Part shown: piece after piece, positions 29,654 through 43,839 of the stretch
Layout of the letters: every line of letters starts with the position of its first letter
Position numbering within the stretch: the stretch's first letter is position 1
Assembly: GCF_008124625.1 (NCBI RefSeq)
Contig: NZ_VNHM01000007.1
Coordinates: forward strand, 1 to 64,000
Origin: Desulfallas thermosapovorans DSM 6562
GTDB taxonomy: Bacteria > Bacillota > Desulfotomaculia > Desulfotomaculales > Desulfallaceae
Reading direction: 5' to 3'
DNA: 64,000 nt
Made by a program: the position numbers and the translations under genes
Notes under the pieces: generated by a model
Database searches by the model: none
Seen by the model: the letters and a program-made list of their open reading frames with translations, nothing else
Told to the model about the DNA's origin: nothing

Positions 29654-30557
29654 TTACTTTGTGGCGTTATCTATGATGGCCTCGGCATCATCCAGCGATG
29701 CGGCGGTATAAATCCGGTTGATAATTCTGTCCAAAATCTCTAATTTGCTGATGTACCTTACCTTTCTTTGTAACCCTTGTGAAGCTTCGCCAAACCTTAC
29801 ATCAAGAAACATGCAGATGGCATCGGCCCTGCCCTTAACCTCACCTTTGGCTATACCCCTGGCCTCACCTTCGGCCATGCCCTCGGCCCTTGCGCCGGCC
29901 AGCATGGAAATTTCGTCCCTGACAGCCTTTTCCCTGAGCTCGTATAGCCTGCGCTCTTTCTTGTCCTTCAAGAAGATCTGCTCTATGGTCAAAGCTTTGC
30001 GAATTCCCGGGTTGCCCATGGCGATTTCCTCCATTTCTTCACCCTGAATGTTGTTAAAGTATAGCAGCCATTCCTCCAGGTCATTTTGCGGCTTGCGCTT
30101 CAGCCCGGCAATCTTTCTCAGTTCCAGGAAATGAATTTCCAGGTCGTCGTTCAATAACTCGCCTGTTTGGTCTTCCCTGATGTGAAAAGTGTAGTGGTAT
30201 TTACCGGCATCTGCAAACCAGTTGAAACCGAGTATGTTGATGGTGATGGTCTTTCTGAGGTGGATAAAGTCTTCGCCGCTGCCCAGTTGGCCGTAGTAAA
30301 GACCCGCCCAGTAGAACAGGGTCCTTTTGTCGATATTGTATTTGTTTACTACCTGTACTTCTATGTTTACTAATGCTCCGGTAGCTGTTTTGGCCAGGAT
30401 GTCAAGCCTGGCGGCTTTATCCAGCAGGTATTTGGGGTCCAGCTCCCGGTCCAGTAACTCCACCGATGTTAATTCCTGTCCCGGCGGTGGTTTCAGCGCC
30501 CTCTTCGGAGCCGAATATCCTTTTGAACAGGTAATCGTTGGTACGGTTGATGCGTTT
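29654..30557 (-). pseudogene. Rpn-family subtype C nuclease, 5' deletion
   Basis: It matches the intact copy at 34044-34958 at very high identity from ELTSVELLDREL to the end. Near the 5' end about 43 bp (KDALISFLNAVLK region) are deleted, shifting the frame after FGSEEG, and the start codon context reads IKRINRTND without ATG. An in-frame ATG still allows a 269-aa product (29654-30463) that keeps the D, E and Q active-site residues, so partial function cannot be excluded. Confidence 0.85.
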
Positions 30558-33104: not shown

Positions 33105-33971
33105 TCAGTAATAATTGTCATGCTGCTTCAAAAGCCACAGGACGCTTTTCGCTTGCTGGTTGGCCTGAACCAACATGGCCATGGCCACCTGCTGGAGTAT
33201 GCTGTACTTGACCAGCGCCATTATCTCCCTGGCCATGTCCGCATCCCTGATCCTGGACTCGGCGGCGATCAGGTTTTCGGCGGTGGTATCCAGGTTGTTG
33301 ATGGTGTGCTCAAGGCGGTTTATGTAAGCACCCATCCTGCCCCGCTCCCGGGAAACGTCCCCGAGGGCCTGATCGACAACGGCTATGTTGTCGTCATAGG
33401 AGTTGGCTAGTATATTGACTCCGCTTAGGGCGAAACCAGTGCCTGCACCGGCACCCAATGTATCAGCTCTCATATTGCTAAACTGTATGTACATTCCCTG
33501 CCCGGCATTGGCCCCTATCTGAAGCCAAAGCCCCTTGCCCGCGCCGGAGTCACAGCTGCCGTCCAGGAGCTTCCTGGTGTTGAATTCCGTCCTGTTCGAT
33601 ATTCCCCCGATTTCTTCAATCAGCTGGTCGATTTCTTGCTGGATAGCTCTTCTGTCGGCATCGCTTAATGTTCCGTTGTGCCCCTGTATTACCAGTTCCC
33701 TGATGCGCTGAATCATGGCGTGGGTTTCGTTTAAAGCACCCTCGGCGGTTTGGATCATGGAGATACCATCCTGGGCATTGCGGCTGGCCTGTCGCAGGCC
33801 CCTGATTTGTGCCCGCATCCTTTCGCTGATGGCAAGGCCAGCGGGGTCGTCCGCGGCCCGGTTTATTCTGAGGCCTGAAGAAAGCCTTTCTATGGCTCTG
33901 GTGACCATGTTGCCGGCTATGATCATGTTTCTATAAGCGGTCAGCGCGGCAATGTTATGGTTTATTATCAT
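33105..33971 (-). CDS. flagellin, short form, intact
   Basis: A 288-aa flagellin with a complete N-terminal D0/D1 ([43 protein letters not shown]), a short variable centre (residues about 165-195, with SFNM-like text replaced by FSNMRADTLGAGAGTGF) and the C-terminal RIRDADMAREIMALVKYSILQQVAMAMLVQANQQAKSVLWLL. A GAGGG ribosome site lies 9 nt before ATG. No sigma-28 motif is visible upstream; the gene follows a subtype C nuclease gene by 72 bp. It may be expressed by read-through or serve as a donor copy. Confidence 0.95.
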   Translation of the reverse strand: MIINHNIAALTAYRNMIIAGNMVTRAIERLSSGLRINRAADDPAGLAISERMRAQIRGLRQASRNAQDGISMIQTAEGALNETHAMIQRIRELVIQGHNGTLSDADRRAIQQEIDQLIEEIGGISNRTEFNTRKLLDGSCDSGAGKGLWLQIGANAGQGMYIQFSNMRADTLGAGAGTGFALSGVNILANSYDDNIAVVDQALGDVSRERGRMGAYINRLEHTINNLDTTAENLIAAESRIRDADMAREIMALVKYSILQQVAMAMLVQANQQAKSVLWLLKQHDNYY

Positions 33972-34043: not shown

Positions 34044-34958
34044 TTACTTTGTGGCGTTATCTATGATGGCCTCGGCATCATCCAGCGATGCGGCGGTATA
34101 AATCCGGTTGATAATTCTGTCCAAAATCTCTAATTTGCTGATGTACCTTACCTTTCTTTGTAACCCTTGTGAAGCTTCGCCAAACCTTACATCAAGAAAC
34201 ATGCAGATGGCATCAGCCCTGCCCTCTGCTTTACCTTCAGCTCTGCCTTCGGCCCTTGCGCCGGCCAGCATGGATATTTCGTCCCTGACAGCCTTTTCCC
34301 TGAGCTCGTATAGCCTGCGCTCTTTCTTGTCCTTCAAGAAGATCTGCTCTATGGTCAAAGCTTTGCGAATTCCCGGGTTGCCCATGGCGATTTCCTCCAT
34401 TTCTTCACCCTGAATGTTGTTAAAGTATAGCAGCCATTCTTCCAGGTCATTTTGCGGCTTGCGCTTCAGCCCGGCAATCTTCCTCAGTTCCAGGAAATGA
34501 ATTTCCAGGTCGTCGTTCAATAACTCGCCTGTTTGGTCTTCCCTAATGTGAAAAGTGTAGTGGTATTTACCGGCATCTTCAAACCAGTTGAAACCAAGTA
34601 TGTTGATGGTGATAGTCTTCCTGAGATAGATAAAGTCTTCGCCGCTGCCCAGTTGGCCGTAGTAAAGACCCGCCCAGTAGAACAGGGTCCTTTTGTCGAT
34701 ATTGTATTTGTTTACTACCTGTACTTCTATGTTTACTAATGCTCCGGTAGCTGTTTTGGCCAGGATGTCAAGCCTGGCGGCTTTATCCAGCAGGTATTTG
34801 GGGTCCAGCTCCCGGTCCAGTAACTCCACCGATGTTAATTCCTGTCCCGGCGGTGGTTTCAGCACTGCGTTTAGAAAACTTATGAGTGCATCTTTGCCTT
34901 CTTCGGAGCCGAATATCCTTTTGAACAGGTAATCGTTGGTCCGGTTGATGCGTTTCAT
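34044..34958 (-). CDS. Rpn-family nuclease, subtype C, intact
   Basis: A 304-aa Rpn-type PD-(D/E)XK protein. The N-terminal TNDYLFKRIFGSEEGKDALISFLN is typical. The active-site set is D64 (ARLDILAKT), E78 and Q80 (NIEVQVV), then YNIDKRTLFYWAGLYYGQL. A short repeat tract GRAEGKAEGRAD at about 240 leads into a DUF4351-like tail (ICMFLDVRFGEASQGLQRKVR). It lies between yjfB and a flagellin gene, and the same trio recurs in decayed form at 20.4-21.3 and 29.0-31.2 kb. Family role: recombination-promoting nuclease; its action here is not known. Confidence 0.9.
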   Translation of the reverse strand: MKRINRTNDYLFKRIFGSEEGKDALISFLNAVLKPPPGQELTSVELLDRELDPKYLLDKAARLDILAKTATGALVNIEVQVVNKYNIDKRTLFYWAGLYYGQLGSGEDFIYLRKTITINILGFNWFEDAGKYHYTFHIREDQTGELLNDDLEIHFLELRKIAGLKRKPQNDLEEWLLYFNNIQGEEMEEIAMGNPGIRKALTIEQIFLKDKKERRLYELREKAVRDEISMLAGARAEGRAEGKAEGRADAICMFLDVRFGEASQGLQRKVRYISKLEILDRIINRIYTAASLDDAEAIIDNATK

Positions 34959-36231: not shown

Positions 36232-37099
36232 TCAAGGGCCATTGTCATGCTGCATCAAAAGCCACAGGACACTTTTCGCCTGCTGATTGGCCTGAACTAA
36301 CATGGCCATGGCGACCTGTTGGAGAATGCTGTACTTTGCCAGCGCCATCATTTCTCTGGCCATGTCCGCATCCCTGATCCTGGACTCGGCGGCAATCAGG
36401 TTTTCGACGGTGGTGTCCATGTTATTGATGGTGTGCTCAAGGCGGTTTATGTAAGCACCCATCCTACCTCTCTCGCGGGAAACGTCCGCAAGGGCCTGAT
36501 CGACAACGGCCATGTTGTCATCATAGGAGTTAGCCAGTATATTGACCCCACTTAAGGCGAAATCCGGGTCTGCACCGGCCCCCAAAATGTCGGCGCTCAT
36601 ATTGCTAAATTGTATGTACATTCCCTGCCCGGCATTGGCTCCCAGTTGAAGCCAAAGCCCCTTGCCCGCGCCGGTGCCACAGCTACCGTCCAGGAGCTTC
36701 CTGGTGTTGAATTCTGTTCTGTTGGATATTCCCCCGATTTCCTCGATTAGCTGGTCAATTTCTTGCTGAATAGTTCTTCTGTCGGCATCGCTTAATGTTC
36801 CGTTATGCCCCTGTATCACAAGTTCCCTGATACGCTGAATCATGGCGTGGGTCTCGTTAAAAGCACCCTCGGCGGTTTGGATCATGGAGATACCATCCTG
36901 GACATTACGGCTGGCCTGCTGCAGGCCTCTGATCTGTGCCCGCATCCTCTCGCTGATGGCCAGTCAGGCGGGATCGTCTAAAGCACGGTTTATTCTGAGG
37001 CCCGAAGATAGTCTTTCTATGGCTCAGGTGACCATGTTGCCGGCTATGGCTATGTTTCTGTAAAGCGGTCTGCGCGGCAATGTTGTGGTTGATTATCAT
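36232..37099 (-). pseudogene. flagellin copy with one frameshift and two nonsense codons
   Basis: The full-length relative of 33105-33971. One inserted base after IAAQTA shifts the frame. Two in-frame stops follow, in VT-stop-AIERL (Arg codon to TGA) and DPA-stop-LAISERM (Gly codon to TGA). From MRAQIRGLQQASRNVQDG to the end (36945-36232) the frame is intact and encodes 237 residues including RIRDADMAREMMALAKYSILQQ. The central segment differs from the intact copy (NMSADILGAGADPDFALSG), which is what a donor cassette would need. No subtype C nuclease lies upstream of this copy. Confidence 0.9.
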
Positions 37100-38993: not shown

Positions 38994-40964
38994 TTACCGC
39001 AGGAGCTGCAGCACGCCCTGGGGCATCTGGTTAGCCTGGGCCAGCATGGCCTGGGCGCTCTGGGAGAGGATGTTCATCTTGGTGAATTCCATCATTTCCC
39101 TGGCCATGTCCACATCGCGGATGCGGGACTCGGCGGCGGTCAGGTTCTCGGTCGATGTGCCCAGGTTGTTGATAATGTGTTCTAAACGGTTTTGGTAAGC
39201 TCCTAATCTTGAGCATTCAGATGTAATCTTACGTATTGCATTATCTATCTTAACAATGGCCTCATTTGCCGTTTCGGAAGATTCCACTGTAACATCGTCA
39301 ATTCCCAAATTAGCTGTGGAGGCATCAGATATAGTGATTAAAAATGACTGACCTGCATTGCTACCCACCTGGATATTGACTACTTTGCCGGGATCCTGGA
39401 CCATTTCCTCAATAGTGCCGTAGATATTTTCAATTACTGCATTAGTGCCGTTGATTTTTGGTATAAATAACGAGTTAATGGCGTTCCCGGCGATTATTTC
39501 AATATCACCAGCCGCAGCGTGAGTTAAAACCAGTTTATCATTCTCGTACGAAGCTGTTATTCCTGCACCGGCTGTAAGTAATTTATCGTTGATCTCCGCA
39601 AGTAAACCGGCTTGATTATAATCTCCTGGAGTCAAGTTTATGGACTTTAACATACCATCTACTGTAAGAATCAAGGAATCATTCTGCCCGGCTGTGACTA
39701 TTAAACCAGCCGAAAGATCTACACTACCTGTGATTTTTGTTTCGGTATAAGTGCCTTCACCTTCTATCATATTTGAGGAATCTATACCATCTACACCAAA
39801 ATTCCTGTCAGGGTTCATCCTGGCAAATAAAGTTTCCTTTGCGTTACCTCCAAAATTACCTATGGCTTGGGGCCCTATTATGCCTTTTTTAATAAACTCG
39901 ATAACTCTTCTGGGGTCATCAGGATCCCCGTGTACTCCCCATATCCTTGTATATACCGGCGCACCCGCTTTATTAGCAGCGTCATCAAGGGCAGCGGCTA
40001 AGGGAGATTTTGATGCGTCACCCGTTGTGATCGTTGAATATGTTCCGGGTGCCAGTTTCAAACTGTAATCTACGCCATCAGCGGTGAATGTTAAAGTATC
40101 GTTAACACCCTCTTCAATTGTTACTGAGGGATATACATCCGTCCAACCAAAGGCATATAAATCCGTAATATCTCCCAATACTTTGTTGATAAACAAGGAT
40201 GTAACAGCGTTTCCGGCAATATCACTTATTGTATGGTTACCAGCTTCATTAACAGTTAAAACCAGTTTACTATTCTGGTAAGAGGCTGTCACCCCTGAAT
40301 TTATGGAACTAAGCTTGCTGTTAATCTCCGTAAGCAAGTTTGTAAGTGTATATGTGCCAGCATCTAAAGTTATGGACATTCCAACTCCGTCAACTTTAAA
40401 GGTTAGTGTATCGTTTACATCTTTTGTGATGGTCAATCCCCCGGAGAGGTCGGCATTTCCCGACACAGAGGCACTTGCGGCAGGTGTTATTTCCTTGGAT
40501 CCCACAATGATTGATCGGGTAATAGTCGAAAAACCGGAAAGTGAGCCATCCAGCAATGTTATGGAGTTGAAATGGGTATTGTTAGCAATATTGTTTATTT
40601 CCTTTTTTATTTCATCAATCTCCAACTGGATTTTTTCAATATCTTGCTTAGACAAGATCCCATTTGCAGCTTGTACGGCCAATTGGCGCAGCCTATGCAG
40701 AGGCGGTTCTAATATATTGTTTAAACCGCCCTCTGCGGTTTGAATAAGTGAGATTCCATCCTGGACATTCCTTTGTGCCCGATCCAGTCCCCTAATTTGG
40801 GCTCTCATCTTTTGGGAAATAGCTAAGCCGGCGGCATCGTCAGCGGCCTTATTAATACGCAATCCGCTGGACAGTTTTTCTATTGTTTTCACTACCTTTG
40901 TGGTAGCAAGGTTTTTATTTCTGTATGTATTAATGGCCGGAATATTATGCATTAAAGCTAACAT
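38994..40964 (-). CDS. long flagellin with FliD-like IN repeats in the variable region
   Basis: A 656-aa flagellin. The N-terminal (SSGLRINKAADDAAGLAISQKMRAQIRGLDRAQRNVQDG) and C-terminal (RIRDVDMAREMMEFTKMNILSQSAQAMLAQANQMPQGVLQLLR) domains are intact. The 430-residue centre holds three related modules with NDTLTFKVDG or NDSLILTVDG followed by LTEINSKL / LAEINDKL and ITASYENDKLVLT, the flagellin hook IN pattern. I chose ATG 40964 (MLALMHNIP), with AAGGA 9 nt upstream, over GTG 40982. No sigma-28 motif visible. It may be a minor or alternative filament protein. Confidence 0.92.
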   Translation of the reverse strand: MLALMHNIPAINTYRNKNLATTKVVKTIEKLSSGLRINKAADDAAGLAISQKMRAQIRGLDRAQRNVQDGISLIQTAEGGLNNILEPPLHRLRQLAVQAANGILSKQDIEKIQLEIDEIKKEINNIANNTHFNSITLLDGSLSGFSTITRSIIVGSKEITPAASASVSGNADLSGGLTITKDVNDTLTFKVDGVGMSITLDAGTYTLTNLLTEINSKLSSINSGVTASYQNSKLVLTVNEAGNHTISDIAGNAVTSLFINKVLGDITDLYAFGWTDVYPSVTIEEGVNDTLTFTADGVDYSLKLAPGTYSTITTGDASKSPLAAALDDAANKAGAPVYTRIWGVHGDPDDPRRVIEFIKKGIIGPQAIGNFGGNAKETLFARMNPDRNFGVDGIDSSNMIEGEGTYTETKITGSVDLSAGLIVTAGQNDSLILTVDGMLKSINLTPGDYNQAGLLAEINDKLLTAGAGITASYENDKLVLTHAAAGDIEIIAGNAINSLFIPKINGTNAVIENIYGTIEEMVQDPGKVVNIQVGSNAGQSFLITISDASTANLGIDDVTVESSETANEAIVKIDNAIRKITSECSRLGAYQNRLEHIINNLGTSTENLTAAESRIRDVDMAREMMEFTKMNILSQSAQAMLAQANQMPQGVLQLLR

Positions 40965-41054
40965 GATAATCGTCCTTAACACTATGATATTGATTTACGA
41001 CATAATATAATTTCCTAATTGTGTCACTGTCCTAATTTGTAGAATTAGATATAG

Positions 41055-41110: not shown

Positions 41111-41224
41111 TTACCGCAGGAGCTGGAGTACGCCCTGGGGCTGCTGGTTGGCCTGGGCCAGCATGGCCTGGGCAGCCTGGGAGAGGATGTTCATCTTGGT
41201 GAATTCCATCATTTCTTTGGCCAT
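41111..41224 (-). CDS. hag: flagellin exon 2 (C-terminal 37 codons)
   Basis: MAKEMMEFTKMNILSQAAQA and on to QGVLQLLR is the conserved flagellin C-terminus. It is in the same phase as the end of exon 1 once the intron is removed: RIRDVD joined to MAKEMMEF reproduces the uninterrupted motif of the neighbouring flagellin (RIRDVDMAREMMEF). Without splicing it would be reached only by an unrelated frame (41111-41518) that reads through the intron, and that frame should not be taken as a real protein. Confidence 0.88.
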   Translation of the reverse strand: MAKEMMEFTKMNILSQAAQAMLAQANQQPQGVLQLLR

Positions 41225-41586
41225 CGTCGCCACAACAGGTTTCCCTGTTGACCAGACTATATCTTCACCCGCAGCGCTCTTACGAGCCTGTGCGGGGCCG
41301 GGCACTTCGAGCGCTTTTTTGCGCGCCCTACGGGCTTCATCACCGTACCGCTTGGGGCGGCCGCAGGTGGTATGCCCTAGTCGTTGAACCTTCCCCAGCC
41401 TTTCGGCACAGGGGCTTGGCTGCTGATTGCCCAATCCCTTCATTTTTTCGACCTTCACGTCTGCCGTTTCCGGCTGCGTTGTGGTATGAAGGGCTCTCAG
41501 GGTTTTCCAGCAATTCACCCAGTGGTACTCCTGACCGTTACCAGCCAGGACGACTGTGCCCTGGCAGCTTAAGCTGCTTTGGCATA
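41225..41586 (-). ncRNA. group I self-splicing intron in the flagellin gene
   Basis: On the minus strand the four conserved core elements appear in the right order: P, AATTGCTGGAAAACCCT (41515-41499); Q, AATCAGCAGCCAAGC (41428-41414); R, GTTCAACGACTAG (41389-41377); S, AGATATAGTC (41264-41255). GACTA of R pairs with TAGTC of S as P7. A P9 hairpin AACAGG-GAAA-CCTGTT lies at 41249-41234. With the boundaries given (exon 1 ends in GAU, intron ends in G) the length is 362 nt. The boundaries are uncertain by up to 15 nt because the flanks are similar; exon ...CAGCU pairing with GGCUG gives an alternative P1. There is no homing endonuclease gene inside. Confidence 0.92.
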
Positions 41587-42939
41587 ATCAACGTCGCGGA
41601 TGCGGGATTCGGAAGCTGAAAGGTTTTCAGAAGCAGTACCAAGGTTATTAATGGTGTGCTCCAATCGGTTTTGATATGCACCAAGTTTGGAGCGTTCGGC
41701 AGAAACCCTCTCAATAGCATTATTTATAGTTGTAATAGCTGTGTTGGCCGCAGCCTGGCTGCTTACATCAACTCCCGCAACAGCAACAGCTTGGCTGGCA
41801 AAACTGCCATCATTATTAAAGGTAGCAGCTGATGATGCTTGTTGGGTTACTGCCTGAGTGGCGGTACCTGAAGTCAAATCGCCTAAACTAGTTGAAGATA
41901 TTAGCATTGTACGACCGGTTGCTGCATCACCAATAGTAACACTAGTCATATCAGCATATACAGTTACTGCAGAACCAATGTTTGTATCACCGCTATCTTT
42001 AAGTTGGATTGAATCATTTCGAGCATTTAATTGGTAGGTTGCGCTTTGCCCCACAGCGTTGCTGGCATCATCAGTAAATGTAATTGTTGTTCCTTTGTAA
42101 GTTACTGTACTGCTACCTGAACCACCTGTAACAGTTATTCCAGCCCAACTCGTTCCTCCATCAGTAGAATACTCAACTGCAGTTACTTGGTTGCTGGAAA
42201 CCCCTGTAACTTTAAATATGACTGTTTCATTACGATCACCAGTATAAGTTCCAGAAATATCAGCACCTCCAGTTACTGTATCAGAAATCTCTGAGGTGCT
42301 AGCAGCATTGTGGGTTACAGCTATAGTATACGTTTGAGCACTAAGTCCCCTACCAAGACCTTCATTACTAAATGCACTTGCTGTTAAACCGGTAGCACCA
42401 GCAACAAAAGCTCCAAGCTGGTTCTGTGCGGAAGCTACCCCCAACGTATAAGCATCCATGGCATTAACAGAGAGCGTTATCTCTTGGCCCTGATTTGCTC
42501 CTATATGGTACGTAGCATTTAAGCCCCCACCAAGCAGGTTTTTAGTGTTAAACTCTGTTGTATTAGAGATTCTGGTTATTTCTTTTGCAAGCTGGTCAAC
42601 TTCTTTCTGGATCTCATTTCTATCAGTTTGAGTAGCGGTATCGTTAGCTGCTTGAACAGCTAGTTCACGCATACGTTGCAGTATGCTGTGAGTTTCATTT
42701 AATGCACCTTCAGCAGTCTGTATCATAGAAATAGCATCCTGCGCGTTTCTAGCTGCCTGATCCAAGCCCCGGATCTGACCGCGCATCTTCTCGCTGATGG
42801 CCAGGCCAGCGGCGTCGTCCCCGGCCCGGTTGATGCGCAGGCCCGAGGACAGCTTCTCCAGCGACTTTGCGCCGATGGCGTTGTTGTTGCTCAACTGACG
42901 ATACGTGTTCAGCGCAGCAATGTTGTGGTTAATAATCAT
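41569..42939 (-). CDS. hag: major flagellin, exon 1 (intron-interrupted gene)
   Basis: Filament subunit. N-terminal D0/D1 is complete ([59 protein letters not shown]). Next comes a Ser/Thr-rich variable centre (about 175-385), then DAIERVSAERSKLGAYQNRLEHTINNLGTASENLSASESRIRDVD (here NAIERV). The unspliced frame runs five codons into the intron (YAKAA) and stops at 41571-41569, lacking the last 37 residues needed for filament assembly. Splicing restores about 490 residues. It is the flagellin with the best promoter (sigma-28-like) and a CsrA-type leader, downstream of fliW-csrA, so it is the probable main gene. Confidence 0.93.
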   Translation of the reverse strand: MIINHNIAALNTYRQLSNNNAIGAKSLEKLSSGLRINRAGDDAAGLAISEKMRGQIRGLDQAARNAQDAISMIQTAEGALNETHSILQRMRELAVQAANDTATQTDRNEIQKEVDQLAKEITRISNTTEFNTKNLLGGGLNATYHIGANQGQEITLSVNAMDAYTLGVASAQNQLGAFVAGATGLTASAFSNEGLGRGLSAQTYTIAVTHNAASTSEISDTVTGGADISGTYTGDRNETVIFKVTGVSSNQVTAVEYSTDGGTSWAGITVTGGSGSSTVTYKGTTITFTDDASNAVGQSATYQLNARNDSIQLKDSGDTNIGSAVTVYADMTSVTIGDAATGRTMLISSTSLGDLTSGTATQAVTQQASSAATFNNDGSFASQAVAVAGVDVSSQAAANTAITTINNAIERVSAERSKLGAYQNRLEHTINNLGTASENLSASESRIRDVDYAKAA

Positions 42940-43040: not shown

Positions 43041-43067
43041 TATTCGTCAATTAAACCATAAACTTTA
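43041..43067 (-). promoter_or_regulatory. sigma-28-type promoter of the flagellin gene
   Basis: On the minus strand TAAA, 15 nt and GACGAATA, five of eight matches to the -10 consensus GCCGATAA. It shares the leading TAAAGTTTAT with the flgM promoter at 47614-47640. It starts at the last codons of csrA and lies about 100 bp upstream of the flagellin start. Confidence 0.65.
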
Positions 43068-43307
43068 GCCCTTTTTCCCCTGCCCGGCAAAAAAATCTTT
43101 CAGCAACTCCACCACGTTACCGTCACTGGCCACGGCGGTGGTATTTTCCTCCCGCACCGCTTGGTACAGCTCGCTGCGCAGGATGGTTACACACCTGGGA
43201 GCCTCGATTCCTATCTTGACGATATCGTCTTTGATCTCCAGAACTGCAATTTTGATATCATCCCCCAGCATAATCCCCTGGTTCTTTTTGCGGGAGAGCA
43301 CCAGCAT
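43065..43307 (-). CDS. csrA: translational regulator CsrA
   Basis: A small RNA-binding protein that represses flagellin translation and is antagonised by FliW. The 80-aa protein starts MLVLSRKKNQGIMLGDDIKIAVLEI, with the expected GIEAPRCVTILRSELYQAV (core IGIxAPxxVxVxRxE). It follows fliW by 1 bp. The last 20 residues form a longer tail than in E. coli. Confidence 0.96.
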   Translation of the reverse strand: MLVLSRKKNQGIMLGDDIKIAVLEIKDDIVKIGIEAPRCVTILRSELYQAVREENTTAVASDGNVVELLKDFFAGQGKKG

Positions 43308-43308
43308 A

Positions 43309-43839
43309 TCAGACTCCCCCTTTGCCGGACACCTTTTTAGCAGCGGGGGGTATGTTTTTTTCGGCTACCCCGGCTGTTTTACCGGAACTGCCTTTAGCCT
43401 CCGGGGTGGGCACTTCCCGGAAGAGCCGGTGTTTGGTGGTGTATGGAGAGCCGCTTAAAATAACCTGCCTGCCTTTATGCAGCCGGGTGTTGATGACAAT
43501 GGGGGCCAGCAGGTTGGCGGTGGTGGCGGCGGGGTTGCCGGGGGGCACGGTGACGGTGGCCAACACCAGTGCCTCGGCGGGTTCTTTGATGCCCAGCTCT
43601 TTGGCGATATGATCGGGCACGTCACAGGAATAGCCTTTAAAGTAAACAAAGGGGTCAATTACCAAAAGGGCCACGGCGGGCTCGTCCACGGCTTGCAGCC
43701 ACCGGATGTTTTCATTGCCTTCCACGGGAAGTATAAAAAAACGCCGCAGCTGTTCAAAGCCGGGAATACCTTTGGGGAAGGCAATAATTTTGCCCTCGTC
43801 TATTTCCACCGTACCGAAACGGGTGGTTTGCACTTTCAT
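43309..43839 (-). CDS. fliW: flagellar assembly factor FliW, with extra C-terminal tail
   Basis: FliW binds either flagellin or CsrA and so links flagellin level to its translation. The core (TRFGTVEIDEGKIIAFPKGIPGFEQLRRFFIL, DPFVYFKGYSCDVPD, TVTVPPGNPAATTANLLAPIVINTRLHKGRQVIL) is complete in the first 145 residues. The last 30 or so residues are Gly/Lys/Ala/Pro-rich and absent from many FliW proteins. Translationally coupled to csrA. Confidence 0.96.
   Translation of the reverse strand: MKVQTTRFGTVEIDEGKIIAFPKGIPGFEQLRRFFILPVEGNENIRWLQAVDEPAVALLVIDPFVYFKGYSCDVPDHIAKELGIKEPAEALVLATVTVPPGNPAATTANLLAPIVINTRLHKGRQVILSGSPYTTKHRLFREVPTPEAKGSSGKTAGVAEKNIPPAAKKVSGKGGV

Follow-up and report, generated by a model that had tools for sequence, protein, structure and literature searches.

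A flagellin group I intron in Desulfallas thermosapovorans and a putative ssrA-like degron in its P1 arm

How a group I intron can survive in a protein-coding gene of a bacterium, where the RNA is read before the ribozyme is complete, is an old puzzle. It is raised afresh by a flagellin gene of Desulfallas thermosapovorans, which lies on the minus strand of the window, the whole stretch of 64,000 nucleotides analysed here (coordinates are those of the window unless a locus is named). An earlier note made from the letters alone had placed a group I intron in this gene at 41225-41586 and proposed a search with the covariance model Intron_gpI. In that search (cmscan), RF00028 matches positions 41596-41233 of the minus strand over the full model (1-253), with a score of 71.6 bits and an E-value of 3.5e-16, where the cut-off is 50 bits; the whole genome of 2.96 Mb has no other RF00028 match with E <= 0.001.

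The gene adjoins csrA (43065-43307) and fliW (43309-43839), with flgL-like and flgK genes farther on. Exon 1 (41587-42939, minus) ends in RIRDVD, its last codon being GAU, and matches Flagellin_N over 1-136 of 139 profile positions and Flagellin_C over 2-54 of 86; exon 2 (41111-41224, minus) encodes 37 amino acids, MAKEMMEF...VLQLLR followed by a stop, and matches Flagellin_C over 51-86 of 86. The intron between them (41225-41586, minus, 362 nucleotides) interrupts the conserved 3' end of the gene, as had been noticed, and a complete protein from this gene would need splicing; the two exons together cover Flagellin_C. Joining GAU to AUG by script restores a flagellin of 488 amino acids that ends RIRDVDMAKEMMEF...VLQLLR. 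The 5' splice site had been left among three candidates, of which the one after GAU is supported: a U(-1).G pair is invariant at this site in all 52 aligned introns of the same insertion site, and a G (the terminal omega-G) directly precedes AUG in all 52 rows. The alternatives UAU|41583 (GAUUAU|GCC) and GCU|41571 were ruled out: in the conserved P1, GAU|U is paired with AGUC, and neither position has such a U.G pair. Open reading frames of at least 60 amino acids in the intron (41111-41518, minus, and 41248-41619, plus) gave no endonuclease match in Pfam, the sole match being Flagellin_C of exon 2, so that neither the list of open reading frames nor Pfam reveals the internal endonuclease that marks a mobile intron; here, too, the earlier reading was right. 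The frame of exon 2 is open across most of the intron core, giving an open reading frame of 135 amino acids from a GTG (41111-41518).

Is such an intron a rarity? The earlier note had taken such introns to be rare in bacterial protein genes and this one to be a second lineage after Geobacillus, or a relative. Searches with RF00028 in samples of three classes of Bacillota gave another picture: in the window's class, 9 of 113 genomes carry flagellin introns, two of them at two sites in one gene; such introns are present in at least 44 of 398 genomes sampled from the class to which an Anoxybacillus belongs, the Bacilli, both sites being occupied in 12 (47 of 398 if the separately tallied G146, the centre of that sample, G155 and G159, all of which hold flagellin introns, are added); and in at least 7 of 391 sampled from the class to which a Clostridium belongs (8 of 391 with the intron-bearing centre genome G123, also tallied separately). 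In Bacillota, group I introns of flagellin genes are no rarity; the earlier finding is true as written, but of a widespread kind. A pattern scan returned flagellin introns only, an outcome partly by design, since the pattern was derived from them, and weak RF00028 matches in G010 and G001 were rejected as flagellin introns on reading of the loci. There are two main insertion sites, sometimes both used in the same gene: site 1, RIRDVD|MAKEMM, which is that of the window, and site 2, about 30 codons downstream near MLA|QANQQPQ (this classification covers the RF00028 rows with a locus, all but 22 of 267). Four introns (L045 at 4837, L050 at 7797, L064 at 927 on the minus strand and L067 at 4610) lie at a third, N-terminal site, RGLE.A..NAQDG|; three of their tails, RLEMPL, KLEMPL and RLVMPL, end in MPL and one is a single K, and none has Ala-Ala.

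The fold was examined in an alignment of 52 introns of site 1, in which 41 pairs in P1, P2, P3, P4, P7 and P9 were counted. Standard pairs are formed in 99.3% of the cells of these pairs, and both sides have changed in 13 of the 41; the covariation score is 0.236 as against 0.110 in shuffles, none of 500 shuffles being as high on any of five measures, and pairing falls to 25-43% when one strand is slid. P1 (41552-41589) pairs exon GAU and U41586 (41589-41586) with AGUC (41555-41552), U(-1).G included, and is extended by 41584-41581 with 41560-41557; it has eight pairs, 99.3% paired, three of them changed on both sides. The P2 hairpin (41529-41550) has a GUAA loop and nine pairs, with 99.1% of cells paired. 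The P9 hairpin, capped by GAAA, was confirmed at 41250-41233 (seven pairs, six changed on both sides, 99.7% paired), as was P7, the G-binding helix, whose strands GACTA (41382-41378) and TAGTC (41259-41255) form five pairs that are invariant in the 52 rows. P3 is paired in 98.1% of cells and P4 and P7 in 100%; P4 and P7 are nearly invariant and add little covariation, so that P7 supports the fold by conservation only. Some 50 nucleotides that separate the first (5') strand of P7 from the second (3') strand of P3 appear foldable; it is after P7 that an intron of subgroup IA would have its extra stems, P7.1 and P7.2. By the sequence tests run, namely P3, P4, P7, the splice-site pair and the RF00028 score, this is a group I intron, and the interruption of the D. 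thermosapovorans flagellin gene by an RNA intron of the self-splicing type is confirmed to that extent.

What happens to a ribosome that runs into it? Read in the frame of exon 1, site-1 introns give five or six codons and then a stop. In the window, this read-through tail is Y-A-K-A-A-stop (41569-41586, minus), its Ala-Ala end having escaped the earlier note, and the two alanine codons and the stop lie inside the predicted apical hairpin of P1, GCAGC-UUAA-GCUGC (41564-41577, minus), with the stop in its loop. Ala-Ala-stop ends 51 of 54 distinct site-1 introns, the rest having Ala-Ser (two) or Val-Ala (one). The tails are YALAA (13), YAEAA (10), YDLAAA (7), YDLAA (4), YAKAA (3, including that of the window), YAFAA (3), YALAS, YDSAA and YDLIAA (2 each) and eight singletons. 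Alanine was not required by the rule that collected these introns; it required TATAGTC downstream and missed at least three introns (L063, L068 and L072), the tails of which are YALAA. The tyrosine and the second residue can be put down to P1, the pairing of which fixes them.

The ends of these tails recall the tmRNA (ssrA) tag. The tag of D. thermosapovorans is ANKENYALAA, and the genome has clpX. Tag and intron tail share C-terminal Ala-Ala, by which the degron is recognized here; the window tail YAKAA has four of the five residues of the end of the host tag, YALAA, with K for L, and YALAA itself is the commonest site-1 tail, found exactly in 13 of the 54. The third-last residue deserves caution: it is Lys in the window, not Leu, and is frequently Glu elsewhere, 12 of the 54 tails ending in EAA, and either replacement of Leu could weaken recognition of the degron. 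Degradation is reported to be most efficient with ALAA-ended tags that have a long enough lead (PMC8512704). By analogy, we consider it probable that the tail is a built-in ssrA-like degron which clears the truncated flagellin made from unspliced message, and that a spare C-terminus found at site 2 (see below) solves the same problem. Unlike tmRNA tagging, the intron tail would be read in cis up to a normal stop codon and with no tagging RNA, and this is not trans-translation.

An outline of the proposed process is as follows. The intron would excise itself after GAU and before AUG, as its anatomy indicates, to give the RIRDVDMAKEMMEF flagellin. Since bacterial ribosomes follow RNA polymerase, they would have to enter the intron, and early ribosomes would arrive at the 5' splice site while the 3' half of the ribozyme is still to be transcribed, and would read on. 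The stop in the P1 loop, five codons in, would keep them off the ribozyme core at the price of a truncated flagellin ending in YAKAA, which is presumed to be harmful. The tail would then act as Ala-Ala of the tmRNA tag does, delivering the truncated flagellin to ClpXP. At site 2, most hosts would have adopted a different solution, a spare flagellin C-terminus in the P1 arm. If this is true, the old puzzle would have a direct and simple answer within P1, in the form of a degron or of a spare C-terminus.

At site 2, 66 of 76 distinct tails encode a complete flagellin C-terminus, for example QSNQMPQGVLQLLR followed by a stop, within the P1 arm (in one of the 66, L061, the sequence is probably that of a site-1 gene's ordinary 3' exon). 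Nine end in Ala (EVLAA three times, EVPAA, EAPAA, EGLAA, FEQIAA, FEQVA and QLLVA) and one ends in Lys, EVLAK instead of EVLAA, in a pseudogene fragment. The predicted product of an unspliced site-2 message is a full flagellin or an Ala-ended one, bar that one pseudogene. With a spare C-terminus in the P1 arm, spliced and unspliced messages would both encode the full protein. Over 63 distinct sequences of the spare C-terminus, first, second and third codon positions show 0.289, 0.127 and 0.524 differences per site, a pattern as for a protein under constraint. The reading of the second intron of G013 as a decaying remnant was rejected, as the same spare C-terminus is present in about 65 other introns of site 2. 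To our knowledge, neither the read-through tail nor the spare C-terminus has been described before; a search of the open-access literature found no intron-encoded degron, which is weak evidence of absence. The pseudogene tail belongs to L016 (G061), where a duplicated 3' fragment, still holding the site-2 intron, lies downstream of an intact flagellin gene.

Could Ala-Ala simply be a by-product of RNA structure, with no role at the protein level, as the apical P1 hairpin calls for codons rich in GC and for a stop in frame at which ribosomes halt? Both alanine codons indeed sit on the 5' strand of the apical P1 stem, forming one of its strands in most site-1 introns, and part of their conservation follows from this position: their six nucleotide positions are paired in 0.93, 0.98, 0.91, 0.67, 0.61 and 0.07 of the site-1 folds. 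Moreover, an in-frame stop near the 5' splice site of a group I intron is an accepted means of keeping ribosomes off the core, according to the accessible part of PMC3984707; this account shares with ours the stop just inside the intron, and that part of it concerns ribosome stalling and folding and does not mention the peptide. The stop codon itself is in the P1 loop in nearly all of the 54 folds, its first two bases being paired in 0% and 4%. However, pairing does not explain the codons fully. The last alanine codon is GCT in 22 introns, GCA in 14, GCG in 10 and GCC in 6 (TCA in 2), with TAA as the stop in 50 and TAG in 4, and among 31 distinct five-codon tails the diversity of the two alanine codons is 0.61 and 0.75 at third positions and 0-0.06 at first and second positions. 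The last alanine codon is predicted to be unpaired in 18 of the 54 introns, and in 18 of 18 its GC, and with it alanine, is kept. In these folds, third-position variation and alanine in unpaired codons exceed what base pairing explains. Furthermore, LAA, IAA, YAA, VAA, QAA, CAA and LVA recur in the host frame, and rarely in other frames, across unrelated cellular and viral genes. The by-product explanation is unlikely on this evidence.

The recurrence was counted in introns outside flagellin genes. The cellular set consists of 245 hits less 108 in flagellin, 70 without a long upstream open reading frame or with a long tail, and 13 with endonuclease-like open reading frames. Tails ending in [AVIL]A occur in the host frame in 11 of 54 and in the other two frames in 0 of 108 (11/67 and 0/134 with the 13 kept); Ala-Ala ends number 5/54 in the host frame and 0/108 in the others, exact LAA being found once in the 54. 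Examples are WALVA and WALIA in dnaE and LAA, YAA, QAA and VAA in phage-type genes. There are counter-cases, such as nrdE-type genes with mostly GGSR, QueF with LCQ and another reductase family with APTGK in five of six, and the majority of non-flagellin introns have no [AVIL]A ending. For viruses, the criterion was fixed before any viral data were seen, though after the cellular result. Among the matches listed, set 1 (67 of the first 80 loci) gives [AVIL]A in 9 of 28 as against 2 of 56 in control frames (p 6e-4), five being exactly LAA; homologous sites are present here, the 28 rows falling into 25 clusters, and its endonuclease filter was post hoc. Set 2, a replicate made up of 34 of 40 further loci and 10 of the 80, gives 6/24 against 0/48 (p 9e-4) among the matches listed. 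Pooled and with no filter, the viral figure, likewise for the matches listed, is 15 of 56 in the host frame against 2 of 112 in control frames (p 1.3e-6), with Ala-Ala in 8/56 against 0/112; three introns clipped at the 5' end by the locus border were excluded. In the 80 viral loci, all four open reading frames of at least 100 codons that end in LAA are intron read-throughs, again among the matches listed. The viral contigs L307 and L389 hold four group I introns apiece in about 2 kb.

Such ends are thus found in roughly a quarter of the viral cases and a fifth of the cellular ones, but at flagellin site 1 in almost every intron. We lean, somewhat less firmly than for the window intron, towards the wider proposal that group I introns in protein genes of bacteria and phages commonly have in the P1 arm an ssrA-like degron, read in frame with the exon before it and ending in [AVIL]A (typically LAA), by which the product of translating unspliced RNA is destroyed; it would be nearly universal at flagellin site 1, and the spare C-terminus would replace it at site 2.

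Another possibility is a regulatory switch, in which temperature- or GTP-dependent splicing sets the level of flagellin. Flagellin genes of Geobacillus stearothermophilus and of thermophilic Bacillus reportedly contain group I introns (Hayakawa and Ishizuka 2009, 2012). The Geobacillus loci found here (L025, L073 and L075) are of site 2 with the spare C-terminus, unlike the site-1 intron of the window. The flagellin introns of thermophilic Bacillus are described as IA2 introns with temperature-dependent activity (PMC4853749), which speaks for a switch. On the other hand, most unspliced site-2 messages keep the full C-terminus, which would weaken a switch there; reports of temperature-controlled splicing have to be read with this in mind, as an unspliced site-2 message would often still yield full flagellin. 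In addition, the window has three other flagellin genes (38994-40982, 33105-33971 and 36232-36945), which are free of introns and have Flagellin_C uninterrupted in Pfam. Given these genes, a functional filament, for which the earlier note took splicing to be required, may not depend on it. A switch as the explanation is decidedly improbable. Alternative C-termini have a parallel in Clostridium tetani, in which an alternatively splicing group II intron in a surface-protein gene provides them; the likeness is to site 2, and the ribozyme is of another class.

The history of the intron leads to the last alternative. The relatives G094, G069, G054 and G013 of Desulfotomaculia have an intron at the same site 1 that is 89-95% identical to that of the window, with the tail YAKAA or YAEAA; G094 and G013, unlike the window gene, have a second intron within the same flagellin gene. 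With the intron of G094, which belongs to another family, that of the window shares 94.7% identity, and with the intron of G013, which is of the same genus as the window, only 89.0%, whereas the flanking exon stretches of the window and G094 are 69-75% identical; in the intron tree the window and G094 are sisters (100/92), with G013 outside. Since intron identity exceeds exon identity with G094 and the intron tree agrees, transfer of the intron between lineages without an endonuclease is suggested. This close kinship would suit a neutral, recently spread parasite that merely inherited its tail and has had too little time to change, a reading that is highly improbable given that the tails differ by synonymous codons and most of the intron sequence has diverged (mean column identity 77% across the site-1 alignment), yet Ala-Ala is kept in 51 of 54.

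Several further observations were made on the way. The Flagellin_N match of the flagellin open reading frame at 36232-36945 begins at profile position 50, and this frame may therefore lack its N-terminal start. A near-identical pair of open reading frames (29654-30463 and 34044-34958), which we take to be Rpn/PD-(D/E)XK-like, flanks flagellin genes. L005 (G009:C60:128293-128528) retains, along with the flagellin exon, only a 3' part of a site-2 intron and seems to be a remnant. L011, L012, L015 and L017 are short group I introns that lie downstream of an rpoD-like gene, probably in a tRNA gene, and in two relatives a dnaE-like gene holds group I introns (L018, L019 and L021), the last of which is followed by an open reading frame that looks endonuclease-like by eye.
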